From positions 1-49,114 of the forward strand of contig NZ_JSZE01000013.1 of the NCBI RefSeq assembly GCF_000802365.1: a DNA stretch of 49,114 bases, written 5' to 3'. The translations under genes were made by a program, and so were the position numbers. The notes below the pieces were generated by a model. It did not search any database. It saw only the letters and a program-made list of their open reading frames with translations, and was not told the origin of the DNA. Below are positions 11,700 to 32,172 of the stretch, piece by piece. Position 1 is the stretch's first letter; each line of letters opens with the position of its first letter. This stretch comes from Xanthomonas cannabis pv. cannabis (GTDB lineage Bacteria; Pseudomonadota; Gammaproteobacteria; Xanthomonadales; Xanthomonadaceae).

Positions 11700-11814
11700 G
11701 TAGGAGCGCACCCGGGCGCGACGGGGGCTTGCCGATAACGCCAGCGCAGGAGCGCACCCGGGCGCGACGTGACGTTTATCGGCCCAGCCTCGTCGCGCCC
11801 GGGTGCGCTCCTAC
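11700..11814. repeat. Cluster of three REP-like (GTAG) elements
   Basis: Three copies of a 24-mer headed GTAGGAGCGCACCC occur: 11700-11723 (plus), 11746-11769 (plus, with GCAG in place of GTAG) and 11791-11814 (inverted). The flanks also mirror each other (GCCGATAACG near 11731 and CGTTTATCGGC near 11774). GTAG-headed REP elements mobilised by RAYT transposases are known in Xanthomonas and Stenotrophomonas. The cluster sits between convergent genes and can form large hairpins that would protect or terminate transcripts. Confidence 0.85.
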
Positions 11815-25839: not shown

Positions 25840-27318
25840 ATGACCATGCCGACTGACTCGATTTCCTTCCATGCCCGCCTCACACCGCAACGCCTCGCCG
25901 CGCGCGACCTGTTGCTGGATCAGCAATGGACCTACGCCGAACTGGACGAGCTGATCGGCCGCCTCGCCGCCCTGCTGCAACTGCGCGGCTGCATCGACGG
26001 CGAACGGCTCGCCGTGCTCGCCCGCAACTCGGTCTGGCAGGTGGCGTTGCACTTCGCCTGCGGACGCGTGGGCGCGATCTACGTGCCGCTCAACTGGCGC
26101 CTGAGCGCCACCGAGCTGGATGCCCTGTTGCAACGCGCCGAGCCGCGCTTGCTGCTGGGCGATGATGTCGCCGCCGGGCGCGCGCATGTCGAAGCGCTGA
26201 CGGACTTCATCGAGACCGCCAAAGGCCTTGCGCCGGCCGAGACGTCCTACATTCCGCCGGACCGCGTCAGCCTGATCCTGTTCACCTCGGGCACGTCCGG
26301 CCAGCCCAAGGGCGTGATGCTGAGCGAGCAGAACCTGCAGCAGGTGGCGCACAACTTCGGCGTCACCACCCGTGTGGATGCAGGCAGCAGCTTCCTGTGC
26401 GAAGCACCGATGTTCCACATCATCGGCCTGGCCACCAATGTGCGGCCGGCACTGGCGGTGGGCGGGTCGATCCAGGTCTCCAGCGGTTTCGAGCCGCAGC
26501 GCACGCTGGGCTGGCTCGGCAATCCGGCGCTGGGCATCACCCACTACGTCGGTGTGCCGCAGATGATGCAGGCCTTCCGCGCTCAACCGGGTTTCGACCC
26601 TGCAGCGCTGCGTCACCTCACCGCCCTGGTCAGCGGCGGTGCGCCGCACGCCAGCGACGACCTGCTGGGCTGGGTGGACGACGGCATTCCCATGGTCTGC
26701 GGCTTCGGCATGAGCGAGGCCGGCACGGTGTTCGGCATGTCGGTCGATTGCGAGGTCATTCGCAACAAGCTGGGCGCGGCCGGCATCTGCTCGCCGACGG
26801 TGCAGACCCGCATCGTCGATGGCGACGGCAACGACTGCCCGACAGGGGTTCCCGGCGAGCTGTTGTTGCGTGGACCCAATCTCAGCCCCGGCTACTGGCG
26901 CGACCCCAAGGCCACTGCGGAGATGCGCGATGCGCAGGGCTGGTTCCGCACCGGCGATATCGTCAAGCGCGATGCCGATGGCTTCTTCTTCGTGGTGGAC
27001 CGCAAGAAGGACATGTTCATTTCCGGCGGCGAAAACGTCTACCCCGCGGAGATCGAAGCCGTGCTCGCCGACCACCCGCAGATCCGCGAATGCGCGGTGG
27101 TGGGCATGGCCGACCCGCAATGGGGCGAGGTGGGGTATCTGGCGATCGTGCCAGCCTCCGAGGACCCGGATCTGGAGCAGATCCGCAGCTACCTGATCGA
27201 GCGCCTGGCCAAGTACAAGGTGCCAAAGCATCTACGCGTGGTGGAGGCGTTGCCACGCACGGCGACAGGCAAACTGCAGAAGGCGCGCCTGAAGGATGCG
27301 CTCGCGAACGACGCATAG
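25840..27318 (+). CDS. fcs: Hydroxycinnamate-CoA ligase (feruloyl-CoA synthetase)
   Basis: This 492-residue acyl-adenylate-forming ligase has the ATP motif LILFTSGTSGQPKGVML, GFGMSEAGTVFG, the hinge WFRTGDIVKRDADGFFFVVD and the catalytic lysine region PRTATGKLQK. It should activate ferulate, coumarate or caffeate to the CoA thioester used by the hydratase-lyase. It is last in the operon, 204 bp after vdh. A second in-frame ATG at 25846 is possible. Substrate is assigned by context, since the family is broad. Confidence 0.9.
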   Translation: MTMPTDSISFHARLTPQRLAARDLLLDQQWTYAELDELIGRLAALLQLRGCIDGERLAVLARNSVWQVALHFACGRVGAIYVPLNWRLSATELDALLQRAEPRLLLGDDVAAGRAHVEALTDFIETAKGLAPAETSYIPPDRVSLILFTSGTSGQPKGVMLSEQNLQQVAHNFGVTTRVDAGSSFLCEAPMFHIIGLATNVRPALAVGGSIQVSSGFEPQRTLGWLGNPALGITHYVGVPQMMQAFRAQPGFDPAALRHLTALVSGGAPHASDDLLGWVDDGIPMVCGFGMSEAGTVFGMSVDCEVIRNKLGAAGICSPTVQTRIVDGDGNDCPTGVPGELLLRGPNLSPGYWRDPKATAEMRDAQGWFRTGDIVKRDADGFFFVVDRKKDMFISGGENVYPAEIEAVLADHPQIRECAVVGMADPQWGEVGYLAIVPASEDPDLEQIRSYLIERLAKYKVPKHLRVVEALPRTATGKLQKARLKDALANDA

Positions 27319-27728
27319 CGCCTGCTGATGCACGTCGGACGCAGAGCAGCTGACAAAACGACTGCATGGCCGCTGCCCGGAACCCGCATGTACCACGCGT
27401 CCACGCCGGTCCCTCCGCGCCATCCGCACCCGCCTGGCGGCGCTCGCTACGTTTTTTAGCCACTCTTGGGCGGACACGTTGCCCGGCGGCGACGTGCACG
27501 CCGACTGGCCTTGGCAGCGTGTGTGTGTCGCTGCGCGTCCCTGACTCCAGCACTCGCCCTGCGCGTGCCCTGCATCCAACGCACGCGCAGGGGGAATGCC
27601 GAAGACGCCGTCGTGGGCACCACTGTCCCAATATGCACATCGGGCAGCCCTGGCTGCCCGATGTGCGTTACTCAGACCGCCTGCATCGTGCCTTTCACTG
27701 CAGCACGAGCAGACAGGCGCGCCAGCGC
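27319..27728. other. Convergent intergenic region fcs-LysR
   Basis: These 410 bp hold a perfect hairpin at 27635-27666. The remaining sequence has open frames on both strands with no ribosome site or family resemblance. It marks the border between the hydroxycinnamate operon and the Lig locus. Confidence 0.6.
27635..27666. terminator. Bidirectional terminator hairpin between fcs and LysR
   Basis: A perfect 15-base inverted repeat (27635-27649 with 27652-27666) is separated by only 2 bases, so 14 bp can pair around a 4-base loop. It lacks long T tracts on either side. Its place between convergent operons suggests shared termination. Confidence 0.65.
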
Positions 27729-28730
27729 TTACGCGGACGCATCCAGCAGGATGTCGTCTTCGCCGACATGGTCGTCCACCCACACCGCGCCCTGCTCGGC
27801 CATGAGCGCCAACTGGTGCTCCAGCTCGCGCATCAGCAGGCGCACGCCCGGCTTGAGAATGGCATTGTTGTCGCGGTAGATCACCCCACCTGCGCGCGCC
27901 TGCGACGGCTGCTGCAGCTGGAAGGCGCGCAACTCGCCACGTGCGATGTCGCCGGCCACCATCATGCTCGGCATCACCGCGATGCTGTCGGTGCCGAGCA
28001 GAATCTCGCGGGTGAAGCTGGCCGAGCTGGAACGCAGCTGGTCGCGCGTGGCCAGCCCATGCTCGCGCATGACCTGCGCCACGTCACGCTCCACGTGCTG
28101 GCTCAGCGTCGGCAGCACCTGGCGATATGCCGCGGCTTCGGCAATGCGTACCGGGCCGTTCGCAAACAGGGGGTGGTCGCTGCGCGCCACCAGGGCGATC
28201 GGATCCTGGTACAGCACCTTGCGGACCAGTGCGTCGTAGCGTGCCAGCGGATAGAGCCGGCCCACGACCAGATCGACTTCGTTGCCGGCCAGCTTGGGCA
28301 GCAGTTCGTCGGTACGGCCATGCAACAGCCGCACCCGCAGCGTGGGCTCGGCGCGGTAGAGCGCCGCCAGCACGGCCGGCAACAGGCCGCTTGCCGCCAC
28401 CGGCAGGGCGCCCACGGTGATCGTGAGCGCGTCGTCCTGCAGCAGACCCTCGAAGGTGTCCTGGGCGCGGCGCAACTGGCCCAGCACCACATGCGCGGTC
28501 TGCACCAGCACCTCGCCCATGGCGTTGGGGCGCACACCGCGTGAGTGACGTTCGAACAGCGGTGCCCCGACGATCTCTTCGATCTCCTGCAGGGCACGCG
28601 TGAGCGCAGGTTGGGTCACATTCAAGACGCGCGAGGCGCGGAGCAGGCTTTTTTGCCGGTCCAGCGCCTCGATGACACGTAGATGCCGGACCTTGATGCG
28701 GTGTTCGAAGAACACGGAGGACATGGTCAT
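27729..28730 (-). CDS. LysR-family regulator of the lig locus
   Basis: This 333-residue LysR-type regulator has its helix-turn-helix at about 14-72: HLRVIEALDRQKSLLRASR then VTQPALTRALQEIEE. The effector domain follows (LTITVGALPVAASGLLPAVL). It resembles PcaQ/GbpR-type regulators that sense aromatic intermediates. It lies downstream of ligB-ligA on the same strand, after a very strong hairpin that may separate its expression from them. Starts at 28730 or 28724 are both possible; neither has a clear ribosome site. The effector is unknown. Confidence 0.87.
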   Translation of the reverse strand: MTMSSVFFEHRIKVRHLRVIEALDRQKSLLRASRVLNVTQPALTRALQEIEEIVGAPLFERHSRGVRPNAMGEVLVQTAHVVLGQLRRAQDTFEGLLQDDALTITVGALPVAASGLLPAVLAALYRAEPTLRVRLLHGRTDELLPKLAGNEVDLVVGRLYPLARYDALVRKVLYQDPIALVARSDHPLFANGPVRIAEAAAYRQVLPTLSQHVERDVAQVMREHGLATRDQLRSSSASFTREILLGTDSIAVMPSMMVAGDIARGELRAFQLQQPSQARAGGVIYRDNNAILKPGVRLLMRELEHQLALMAEQGAVWVDDHVGEDDILLDASA

Positions 28731-28766
28731 GGGGGATGGGCCTTACGTTGGGAAGTCGGTGACAGC

Positions 28767-28820
28767 ACCCGGCAGGTGCCCGAGGCGCGCAGTTCAGCGC
28801 GCCTCGGGCACCTGCCGGGT
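28767..28820. repeat. Perfect 24-bp inverted repeat spanning the ligA stop codon
   Basis: The arms 28767-28790 and 28797-28820 are exact reverse complements over 24 bases, with the 6-base loop AGTTCA. On the minus strand the upstream arm encodes the last eight codons of ligA, the loop contains its TGA, and the second arm lies in the 63-bp gap before the LysR gene. The RNA hairpin would be exceptionally stable. It may terminate or attenuate transcription, or protect the ligBA mRNA 3' end. Confidence 0.9.
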
Positions 28821-29153
28821 CTGCATGAACGCTTCGAACGATTCGCCGCGCATGATGGCGTAGACCTGCAGATTGGTCATGCGCACCACACGGGCGAACT
28901 TTTCGATGACGAAAAAATTGGCGCCGTACTGCACCAGGCCAAGCCAGTCGCGTGCGCGGATCAGCGCCTTCTCCTGCTCGGTGAGCCCGGCCTCCTGCAT
29001 CAGCACTTCTGCATCCTGCAAGAAGCGGTCGCGCCACGGCGCGCGGATCATCTGCCAGAAAAAGCGATTCAGGCGCAGCGCGCGGTTGCTGGTGCGCAGA
29101 TCGAACAGATAGGTCCCGTCGATCTTGTCCATGCCGTTGACTTGCGGATTCAT
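28794..29153 (-). CDS. ligA: Protocatechuate 4,5-dioxygenase alpha subunit (LigA-like)
   Basis: This 119-residue helical subunit is of the LigA family: FDLRTSNRALRLNRFFWQM, then EQEKALIRARDWLGLVQYGANFFVIEKFARV. LigA caps the active site of LigB in extradiol type-II dioxygenases. The ATG at 29153 follows GAGGG; Met8 (MDKIDGTYL) is an alternative. The gene is 10 bp downstream of ligB, the reverse of the ligA-ligB order in Sphingobium. The final codons lie in one arm of a perfect inverted repeat. Confidence 0.9.
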   Translation of the reverse strand: MNPQVNGMDKIDGTYLFDLRTSNRALRLNRFFWQMIRAPWRDRFLQDAEVLMQEAGLTEQEKALIRARDWLGLVQYGANFFVIEKFARVVRMTNLQVYAIMRGESFEAFMQTRQVPEAR

Positions 29154-29163
29154 GTGCAGGCCC

Positions 29164-30060
29164 TCATGCCGCGTTGGCGGTACGCGCCAACAGCTCTGCC
29201 GAACGCGGCGCATCGGCCGCCTCTTCGCCCGGCTCGTACACCACCACGGTCATCGCGGTGGTGGTCATCAGGTAGTAGTTCTGATGCAACTTGCGGATCG
29301 GACCCTCCAGCGCGCCACGCATGGCCAGCCACATGATCTGCTCCACGCTCTCGGCCCCGCCCAGGCGCACGTAATCGGTGTGGGTCAGGTCGGTCAGCGT
29401 CTCGGGGGCATGCTGGAAGCGGTCCAGAAACTCCATGTCCCACTCGGTGTTGTTGAAGCCGGTGCGCTCGCCATGGATCTGGTGCGACAAACCGCCGGTG
29501 CCGACCACCACCACCCTGAGATCTTCCGGATACGACTCGATGGCACGCCGCACCGCCTGACCCAGCCGGTAGCAGCGGCGCGCGGTCGGCAGCGGGTACT
29601 GCAGCACGTTGATCGCGATGGGCACCACCGTGCCGGGCCAGTCGGGCACATGCGGCCATAGCAGCGGCAAGGGTGCCGCGCAGCCATGGTCGATGGGCTT
29701 GTCCTGGAACACGGTCAGGTCGAATTCGTCATTGACCAGGCACTCGGCGATATGCGACTGCAGCTGCACATCGCCGCGAATGGGCGGCAGGTTGCGCAAG
29801 CCCGCTCCCTCGTCGGCCACCGGGAAACGCTCGCCCACGCCCAACGCGAAGGTCGGGTACAGATCGAAAAAGAACGTGGTGCAGTGATCGTTGTAGAAAA
29901 ACACCAGCACGTCGGCCCGTTGCCGGGCCAACCACTCGGCGACCGGCGCGTAGCCGTCGAACAACGGTTTCCATATCGGATCCTGTTGTTTGCCCTTGTC
30001 GTAGGCCACCCCGATGGTAGGAACGTGCGAGGTTCCGATGCCGCCGATGATGCTTGCCAT
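29164..30060 (-). CDS. ligB: Protocatechuate 4,5-dioxygenase beta subunit (LigB-like)
   Basis: This 298-residue catalytic subunit of a type-II extradiol dioxygenase opens a catecholic ring next to the hydroxyls using Fe(II) and O2. Iron ligands are expected at His12 (IGTSHVPTIG), His59 (FFYNDHC) and a glutamate in NNTEWDMEF; the conserved GTGGLSHQIHG carries the catalytic histidine. The length is close to Sphingobium LigB (302). The ATG at 30060 is fixed by AGGAG; the frame extends upstream into the divergent promoter. Protocatechuate is the likeliest substrate, but gallate or a related catechol is possible. Confidence 0.9.
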   Translation of the reverse strand: MASIIGGIGTSHVPTIGVAYDKGKQQDPIWKPLFDGYAPVAEWLARQRADVLVFFYNDHCTTFFFDLYPTFALGVGERFPVADEGAGLRNLPPIRGDVQLQSHIAECLVNDEFDLTVFQDKPIDHGCAAPLPLLWPHVPDWPGTVVPIAINVLQYPLPTARRCYRLGQAVRRAIESYPEDLRVVVVGTGGLSHQIHGERTGFNNTEWDMEFLDRFQHAPETLTDLTHTDYVRLGGAESVEQIMWLAMRGALEGPIRKLHQNYYLMTTTAMTVVVYEPGEEAADAPRSAELLARTANAA

Positions 30061-30136
30061 GCTGCGCTCCTGCGACGCGGCGCCGCCGAGGAAGGCCGGG
30101 CGCGCGTCATTGATTGGGTCGGGACCGGCGATGCAA

Positions 30137-30146
30137 TGGATCCCAA
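30137..30146 (+). promoter_or_regulatory. GntR operator candidate, copy 1
   Basis: The decamer TGGATCCCAA is the exact reverse complement of copy 2 at 30188-30197. Known VanR-type GntR operators carry ATTGGATCCAAT-like cores, which this resembles. It lies 77 bp upstream of the ligB start. Confidence 0.5.
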
Positions 30147-30187
30147 CAGGGACGATCGAGCACTCCGGATTACCAAAGAAGGTATCC

Positions 30188-30197
30188 TTGGGATCCA
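30188..30197 (+). promoter_or_regulatory. GntR operator candidate, copy 2
   Basis: TTGGGATCCA, continuing AAT, is the inverted partner of copy 1; the centres are 51 bp apart, about five helical turns. It lies midway in the ligB/GntR divergent region. Two inverted sites on the same DNA face would suit cooperative binding or looping. Confidence 0.5.
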
Positions 30198-30302
30198 AAT
30201 TGCCATCAAGCGATCTCGTCCGCAAGGTTTTTATACACGCATTTGCGAGTTTTCCCCTTCCAAGGAACGTGCGCTGCGGTACGGCGCGAGAGAATGGAGC
30301 CA

Positions 30303-30968
30303 ATGGCGAACAACCACCGATTGCAAGCGGTCCAGCAGCTACGCGAATTGATCCTGTGCGGCACCTTTGCCCCGGGCGAACGCATCACCGAAGCGGCCCT
30401 GGCCGAACGCCTGGCGATTTCGCGCACGCCCATCCGCCAGGCCCTGCCGGCGTTGTGCCAGGAAGGCCTGCTGGCACAGACAGGCAACCGCGGCTATGCG
30501 GTGCGCCGCTTCAGCCAGCAGGAAAGCCTGGATGCCCTGGCCGTACGCGCCCTGATGGAAGGTTTGGCGGCGCGCACGCTGGCCGAGCAGGGCGCGTCGG
30601 CCGAGGTGCTTGCCACCCTGCACGGCTGTCTTGGCGAAGGCGACCGCCTGTTCGCCAAGCGCAGCCTCGATGCCGGTGACGAGCAGGCCTATGCCGCGAT
30701 GAATGCCCGCTTCCATCGCACCATCGTGGTGGCGGCCAACAAGCCCATCCTCACCGAAACCGTGGACCGCTGCACGGTGGTGCCGTTCGTCAGCCCCAGC
30801 CATGTGGTGTTCGGCCAGCGCTCGGCCACCGTGGCCTACGACGATCTGTATTACGGGCACCGCCAACATGGGGCGATCGTCTCGGCGATCGAACAACGCG
30901 ACGGAGCACGTGCGGAACTGCTGTTCCGCGAACATGCGCATACGCAACGCCACAGCATGGGAATGTGA
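30303..30968 (+). CDS. GntR-family (FCD/VanR-like) regulator
   Basis: This 221-residue protein has an N-terminal winged helix (LQAVQQLRELILCGTFAPGER then RLAISRTPIRQALPALCQEGLL). The C-terminal FCD domain has metal-type histidines in ARFHRTIVVAA, GHRQHGAIVSAIEQRD and FREHAHTQRH. It is divergent from ligB with 242 bp between starts and probably represses it, in the manner of VanR in vanillate pathways. ATGs at 30294 and 30303 are both in frame; neither has a well-spaced ribosome site. The ligand is unknown. Confidence 0.87.
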   Translation: MANNHRLQAVQQLRELILCGTFAPGERITEAALAERLAISRTPIRQALPALCQEGLLAQTGNRGYAVRRFSQQESLDALAVRALMEGLAARTLAEQGASAEVLATLHGCLGEGDRLFAKRSLDAGDEQAYAAMNARFHRTIVVAANKPILTETVDRCTVVPFVSPSHVVFGQRSATVAYDDLYYGHRQHGAIVSAIEQRDGARAELLFREHAHTQRHSMGM

Positions 30969-31093
30969 CTACCGCGCCCCGGAGCTGAGCACGACGCACC
31001 TGCGCCAACACCGCAGACGCGCCACGCGGCACCCATTGAGCGACCAGCTTGCTACCCGCTCGTGCAGGTGGCAACGGCAGTTAACCCGCCACA

Positions 31094-31119
31094 CGCAGCG
31101 CCCCGTCGCAGGCGCTGCG
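31094..31119. terminator. Hairpin between GntR gene and outer-membrane transporter gene
   Basis: CGCAGCGCC (31094-31102) pairs perfectly with GGCGCTGCG (31111-31119) around an 8-base loop, between convergent genes. No T tract follows on either strand. Confidence 0.4.
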
Positions 31120-31137
31120 CATGGCGGCGGTGGACGC

Positions 31138-32172
31138 CTATAACGAATGCACGAACATCAGATTGAAGTTATTGCCAGCGACCGAATTTTCCACATCCAC
31201 CGGCAGGTACACATTGAAGTTGAACAGGTTCTTTTCGTTCATGCGCCAGGACAGACCGGGGCCGATATAGAACTGCCTGCGTTTGCTGTCCGGCACACGC
31301 TGGTCATTGGTGCGGTTGTCCTTCAACTGCTGCAGGTAGTACCCATTGAGCCCCACCCGCCACTGCTCGTTGAGCTTCAGCGAGGTGGCGAAGTTGAGCC
31401 AGACCAGGTCGCCGGCCTGCCCGTTGCGGAAACGGAAGCCGGGAATCGGCGGCACGCCGCCGGCGCGGCTGGTCCGGAAGTTGTACAGATAATTCAGGCG
31501 CCCGCTGATTTCCCAGCGATCGCTGGGTTGCACGGTGAATGCCCAGTGCGGGGCCACCGACCAGAACCCGGTGCTCTGGTTGATCGCGGTATCACGATCG
31601 AACTTGCCGACCGGCGCAAAGGCGTCGATTGCAAAGCGCTGGAAGAAGAACACGCGCCCGTCGCGCATGACCGGCGGCATCTGCAAGGCAGGCCCGAACG
31701 AGATATCGCCCATGCCGAACCCATTGCTGCTCAGCTGCACGGGGCTGTCTGCGGCAAATGCGGTGTCGTAATTGACCAACGGCACGATGGCATTGAAGCT
31801 CAACGAACCTCCCTTCCAGGTATAGGGCGTGACATAGATCATCTGGGTCAACAGCACGCTGACGTCCACTTGCGGGTCGCGAAAGGCCGGCGAATCGTCG
31901 CCGCTGGCATTCCGGATCGAATTGAAGTGGTAATGGCGCAGGTATTCGATGACGGTCCAGCCGGGCGTCAGCGAGCCAAACCCGTCCATGAAACTGGTGC
32001 CCCCCACATTGATGCCCTGCGGCGGTGCCGCCGTTTCCGGTACGGCCTGCGCCATCACCGTGCCCGGCAACACCGCAGCGAGTGTGGCGCCGACAATCCA
32101 TGACCGTTGCCGACGCGACAGGGCGCACAGCAACACCGAACGACAATGAGCAGACAAACGGACGCGTTCCAC
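31138..32172 (-). CDS. SphA/MetA-pathway-type outer-membrane transporter
   Basis: This 344-residue protein has an N-terminal signal region (about residues 20-42, ending GTVMAQA) followed by a beta-barrel of the 'phenol MetA-pathway degradation' type, with alternating hydrophobic strands and a terminal NFNLMFVHSL ending. Members sit in aromatic-degradation clusters and are thought to admit hydrophobic or aromatic substrates across the outer membrane. The start is a GTG at 32172, supported by GGAG 9 bases before it. It is the last gene of the hydrolase/NTF2/transporter group. Confidence 0.85.
   Translation of the reverse strand: MERVRLSAHCRSVLLCALSRRQRSWIVGATLAAVLPGTVMAQAVPETAAPPQGINVGGTSFMDGFGSLTPGWTVIEYLRHYHFNSIRNASGDDSPAFRDPQVDVSVLLTQMIYVTPYTWKGGSLSFNAIVPLVNYDTAFAADSPVQLSSNGFGMGDISFGPALQMPPVMRDGRVFFFQRFAIDAFAPVGKFDRDTAINQSTGFWSVAPHWAFTVQPSDRWEISGRLNYLYNFRTSRAGGVPPIPGFRFRNGQAGDLVWLNFATSLKLNEQWRVGLNGYYLQQLKDNRTNDQRVPDSKRRQFYIGPGLSWRMNEKNLFNFNVYLPVDVENSVAGNNFNLMFVHSL

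Follow-up and report, generated by a model that had tools for sequence, protein, structure and literature searches.

A perfect inverted repeat over the ligA stop codon of Xanthomonas cannabis, probably an old imperfect dyad completed by template switching

The window analysed here, a 49,114-base contig of Xanthomonas cannabis pv. cannabis, carries the genes ligB, ligA and lysR in that order on its minus strand (Table 1). The start of ligA was placed where most of the listed database relatives begin, and most of the 120 LigA matches listed (of 236) are 119 amino acids long and cover 86% of our 139-residue query. The distance between the lysR ATG and the initial base of the ligA stop codon is 66 nt, and the related genome G034 has the same 66-nt gap. 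A family-level search for LigA matched 12 of 198 genomes, nine of them from the genus (our own included) and three weakly. At E values up to 1e-20, 3 of 369 genomes were matched in the class search and 13 of 398 in the phylum search, again counting this genome, the other matches having 37-56% identity. About 60 nt past the lysR stop, a perfect 15-bp hairpin with a 2-nt loop (27635-27666) was observed, a further gene-end hairpin in which, by eye, a T tract is absent. Between the 3′ end of lysR and a gene for an AMP-binding enzyme, positions 27388-27461 of the plus strand match the Xanthomonas small RNA family sX9 of Rfam (65.8 bits; gathering score 44).

Table 1. Features at the ligA-lysR junction and in its neighbourhood.
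Feature	Position	Strand	Basis
LysR-type regulator (lysR), same strand as ligA	27729..28730	-	PF00126, PF03466
Remainder of the ligA-lysR gap, including a block of high conservation within Xanthomonas (here CCGACTTCCCAACGTAAGG)	28731..28766	-	alignment
3′ arm (gene strand), located between ligA and lysR; reverse-complements the final eight ligA codons without mismatch	28767..28790	-	repeat search
6-nt loop TGAACT, of which TGA (28794-28796) is the ligA stop	28791..28796	-	repeat search, reading frame
5′ arm (gene strand), last eight ligA codons, ACCCGGCAGGTGCCCGAGGCGCGC, TRQVPEAR	28797..28820	-	repeat search, reading frame
ligA, 119 aa if the start is that of most listed database relatives; mechanical open reading frame to 29213	28794..29153	-	PF07746, E 1.7e-32
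ligB, mechanical open reading frame, start provisional	29164..30303	-	PF02900, E 3.7e-82

At the end of ligA, an inverted-repeat search identified two 24-nt arms that are 100% complementary and separated by 6 nt. The preliminary description had reported an exact 24-bp inverted repeat with a 6-base gap and the ligA stop in its loop, and both the repeat search and the reading frame agree; the coordinates likewise agree with its assignment of one arm to the last eight ligA codons and of the other to the gap before the lysR gene. Read directly, the sequence after the hairpin has no T tract on either strand, and a consensus terminator scan of 27300-31300 returned two terminator-like sites, neither of them at the repeat. 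As regards intrinsic termination, a GC-rich stem-loop is present and a T (U) tract directly after the stem is absent. The RNA fold of 28740-28860 reaches -82.2 kcal/mol with a z-score of -9.27, as good as none of 200 shuffles, while the 70 nt starting 24 nt before the ligA stop fold at -62.2 kcal/mol. In the assembly the repeat is genuine, goes beyond chance and is no canonical terminator.

About 1.14 Mb in all was scanned for perfect hairpins whose arms measure 12 nt or more and whose loops span 3-20 nt; the scan covered 695,340 bases of the same genome in 40 stretches, 400,000 bases of G034 in 20, and the window itself. The 24-bp ligA repeat is the longest perfect short-loop hairpin in this sample, the runner-up having arms of 17 bp, which upholds the earlier claim of an unusually long stem. 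The same genome yielded 37 perfect hairpins (longest arms 17 bp), G034 yielded 19 (longest arms 15 bp) and the window four, the second longest with arms of 14. Straddling of a stop codon, as judged from mechanical open reading frames (ORFs), was seen in 1 of the 37 hairpins of this genome, with 12-bp arms, and in 1 of the 19 of G034, with 13-bp arms. Ten of the 37 lie at most 150 nt after a mechanical-ORF stop without a T tract and four with one; the T-tract rule overlooks T runs within the stem. T-less gene-end hairpins do occur in this genome; the 24-bp size is exceptional. At other ORF stops, taking the best pairing over loops of 3-12 nt, the maximum was 17 of 24 pairs among 489 stops in this genome and 15 of 24 among 275 in G034; this background, like the one used for folding below, consists of mechanical ORFs of at least 150 amino acids, and ligA itself thus lies outside it. 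Elsewhere in the window, at 11700-11814, nested long inverted repeats of 39 nt (87%) and 22 nt (100%) were seen, one of which begins with GTAGGAGCGC. We take them to resemble a REP-type element.

Comparison across the genus shows how the repeat is distributed. The ligA junction is present in all 35 Xanthomonas genomes, and its perfect 24-bp form in one of them. Three of the 35 junctions (L032, L033 and L035, from G019, G018 and G013) have lost the ligA stop; they pair at 2, 2 and 7 of 24 positions, the dyad being gone there too. A database protein from X. fragariae (P0082) was seen to read on past the usual end. Pairing was surveyed with the loop fixed at 6 nt in 30 distinct junctions of the 32 with a stop, leaving out the three stopless junctions and two duplicates and retaining the divergent L009, L023, L031 and L034. 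These junctions form on average 13.9 of 24 Watson-Crick pairs, or 13.55 (about 13.6) without this genome, compared with a mean of 8.0 for shuffled arms, for which the highest mean of 500 shuffles was 9.4; each of 13 other registers, with loop lengths of 0-13, gave fewer than 9 of 24. The loop reads TGANCT in 28 of the 32 stop-bearing species, this genome included, and the register is broken or near chance in four (L009 with 10, L023 with 8, L031 with 5 and L034 with 9 of 24 pairs). The six closest species by identity pair at 17 of 24 positions (G034), 16 (X. dyei, Leaf148, X. pisi and G007) and 15 (sp. 3793). X. codiaei, G010 and X. floridensis have 13, 14 and 10 pairs, and are placed as near to this genome as the G034 group in a tree built from one junction with the arm columns removed; of the 32 inner branches of this tree, 13 have good support and 11 are left open.

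Combining arms of different species lowers pairing only slightly relative to arms of the same species (12.89 against 13.55 of 24), which indicates that the dyad is mostly shared inheritance and is not kept species by species. A weaker dyad with the same loop in most of the genus also implies that an old quasi-palindrome was perfected here, rather than that a fresh inverted duplication arose. Of the earlier suggestion that the gene end had undergone a recent inverted duplication, the recency and the inverted copying come close to the mark, and the fresh duplication gives way to the imperfect dyad found across the genus. In the same manner, the prospect that the second arm would be absent from all relatives was replaced by the finding that most of the genus has an imperfect arm in the corresponding position, with a loop of the same length. 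Judged from these comparisons, the two arms have a long history in most of the genus and their perfect match is recent. Outside Xanthomonas, the ligA end of Variovorax sp. dw_308 (L061) has a stop-straddling GCGCGC/GCGCGC dyad with 14 of 24 pairs and a 4-nt loop, and that of Paraburkholderia (L062) pairs at 10 of 24 positions at the ligA stop; two outgroup loci do not suffice to claim the dyad for other genera. Behind the Variovorax dyad, inspection by eye shows a GC hairpin and then a T tract.

The best explanation, and in our judgement a probable one, is that an old imperfect inverted repeat was perfected in this lineage by quasipalindrome correction, that is, by template switching. During replication the nascent strand would fold back or jump to the sister strand, copy one arm as the template for the other and then return, with the 6-nt loop and the stop codon preserved. 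The main visible outcome would be that the non-coding arm has become a mirror of the coding arm. If point changes occurred independently, at the level of divergence seen in the flanks, they would lead to 24 of 24 pairs with a probability of 8.5e-11 to 1.1e-18 from nine relatives, and of 1e-10 or less at 25% or 40% divergence, in a model that uses equal rates, starts from living relatives and was computed after the repeat had been noticed. Both arms differ from those of relatives in the alignment, where the 28767-28790 arm is an imperfect complement. Compared with G034, 7 of 24 aligned sites differ in the downstream arm, with 9% in the flanks and 6 of 35 sites in the remaining gap, and 2 of 24 sites differ in the coding arm. 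The coding arm has a Gln codon, CAG, where the other 31 stop-bearing species have an Arg codon. A single copying from the coding to the non-coding arm does not on its own explain this change, which calls for a prior point change or a further event; Gln occurs at that position in 18 of the 120 LigA matches listed (of 236), and the protein end therefore remains plausible. The correction would take one or a few events, and the same end state could also be reached in steps by selection for pairing. The weak pairing of X. codiaei, G010 and X. floridensis, which are near in the tree, counts against quasipalindrome correction. We infer the template switch and its direction, as we do all effects on RNA. 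In the ligBA mRNA, the 24-bp hairpin would be free to close once the ribosome that terminates at the stop has cleared the final eight codons, and not before; it may then form a passive obstacle, protecting the 3′ end of ligBA and reducing read-through into lysR.

Alternatively, the dyad may be a functional RNA hairpin maintained by selection, and strongest in this genome, which protects the mRNA 3′ end or separates ligBA from lysR as a terminator or attenuator lacking a T tract; we regard this as unlikely. Its register is held in most of the genus, its covariation score is above that of 500 of 500 shuffles, and the poor pairing of the three stopless junctions is consistent with such a role. 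The folding energy at the ligA stop has a median of -31.65 kcal/mol over 32 species including this genome, other gene ends being weaker, with medians of -22.7 kcal/mol in this genome (453 ends) and -23.4 kcal/mol in G034 (272 ends), and the -62.2 kcal/mol of this genome lies below the lowest of the other gene ends, at -46.6 kcal/mol in its own genome and -42.5 kcal/mol in G034. When corrected for composition with dinucleotide shuffles, however, the median z over the 32 species is -0.65, and z falls below -2 in 3 of 31 relatives (4 of 32 with this genome), a rate of about 10%, as at other gene ends. The consensus fold favours two small separate hairpins with two-sided change in 0 of 11 pairs, the hairpin has no T tract, and the register fails in the four species named above. 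No Rfam family reaches its gathering score at the repeat. On the absent T tract, the Rfam result and the relatives, which fold little better than shuffles, the regulated attenuator put forward in the preliminary description gains no support. Seven miRNA precursor models were returned at a relaxed Rfam threshold and rejected, all being below their gathering scores and expected of any perfect hairpin. Covariation was assessed in two ungapped alignments, A1 (28 rows) and A2 (27 rows), from which L009, L023, L031, L034 and the three stopless junctions were omitted; these rows, with indels or a divergent arm or stopless, are the least favourable, so the covariation figures flatter the dyad. Without this genome, 73.5% of cells pair, against 25-49% in slid registers, and the covariation score is 0.141 against at most 0.070. 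After letters were shuffled among species, 70.9% of cells were still paired, because many columns are conserved. Compensatory changes in both arms across Xanthomonas had been anticipated from an RNA role; two-sided changes were found in 3 of 24 pairs, and 441 and 351 of 500 shuffles were as high or higher. The number of cells with two-sided changes was equalled in 1 and 0 of 500 shuffles and the covariation score in 0 of 500, and relatedness can cause both. The pattern is more consistent with a quasi-palindrome that has persisted than with a conserved RNA device. Some hairpin may still be loosely required where the gene ends, and the hairpin may protect the 3′ end of the ligBA mRNA.

An artefact of assembly or library preparation, through fold-back or template switching in vitro, is very improbable. 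The genome is a draft of 257 contigs, the species is represented by one genome, and a fold-back yields exact complementarity of this kind, but the repeat lies at least 20 kb from either contig end and both flanks, including the length of the lysR gap, are colinear with relatives. An artefact would also need to strike exactly the old dyad, which is present in imperfect form in many other assemblies, and the coding arm retains the ligA frame, with an Arg-to-Gln variant already known among LigA proteins. The fold-back suspected from the sequence at the outset is accordingly judged unlikely. The insertion of a REP-like dispersed repeat at the gene end has next to no likelihood: other long inverted repeats do exist in the window, such as those at 11700-11814, but the site of the ligA repeat is that of the old dyad common to the genus. 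A search for a second genomic copy at E values up to 10 found nothing beyond short pieces, the best being 19 nt at E 0.01.

Template switching, the reading preferred here, may have acted at this stop in more than one lineage. X. euvesicatoria (L020, G016) has a different perfect repeat over the ligA stop, with 11-bp arms and a 7-nt loop, for which 0 of 200 shuffles were as good and whose tree neighbours L018, L019, L022 and L028 reach at most 6. Two lineages with different perfect repeats at one stop suggest a hotspot, though two is few. Tentatively, the ligA stop might be a recurrent hotspot of template switching in which the coding arm repeatedly acts as template, and replication errors, not RNA selection, rebuild stop-straddling hairpins. 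If true, this hotspot, with 24 bp here and 11 bp in X. euvesicatoria, would supply GC-rich bacteria with gene-end hairpins by mutation.

Among the titles and beginnings of abstracts listed in the literature search, none concerned this ligA repeat. The repeat is probably a clear case of a known mechanism, the perfecting of an inverted repeat by template switching, and not of a new one. As such it would provide a natural bacterial example in which one lineage has the perfect hairpin and related species carry imperfect versions. It also bears on the origin of T-less gene-end hairpins, which could stem from an error of copying between arms rather than from many selected point changes, and since one arm is coding, the last codons of a protein can shape the non-coding sequence behind them.

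Quasipalindrome correction is established in E. coli according to the available part of PMC7202029, where the Ripley model and the E. coli thyA hotspot are recounted. The ligA case shares with these systems an imperfect, short-spacer inverted repeat that is perfected in one lineage while spacer and flanks stay. In contrast to the systems in that part of the source, it is deduced from the comparison of species rather than from an observed mutation, and its repeat straddles a stop codon, with one arm under coding constraint. In the accessible portion of PMC8794818, template switching is put forward as a process that generates and fixes RNA stems and retains the loop, and the same origin of a perfect stem with a retained loop is proposed here; that portion concerns rRNA and microRNA genes, whereas the ligA case is an mRNA end with a putative RNA role. 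A GC-rich perfect stem at a gene end is also common to the perfect inverted repeats that are enriched behind bacterial stops and the intrinsic terminators treated in the excerpts of PMC13155455 and PMC12207403, which locate the peak at 50-80 nt, and the majority of terminators at 25-75 nt, downstream of the stop. Unlike the cases in those excerpts, the ligA hairpin takes in the stop codon and the last eight codons of the gene, and is formed without a T tract.
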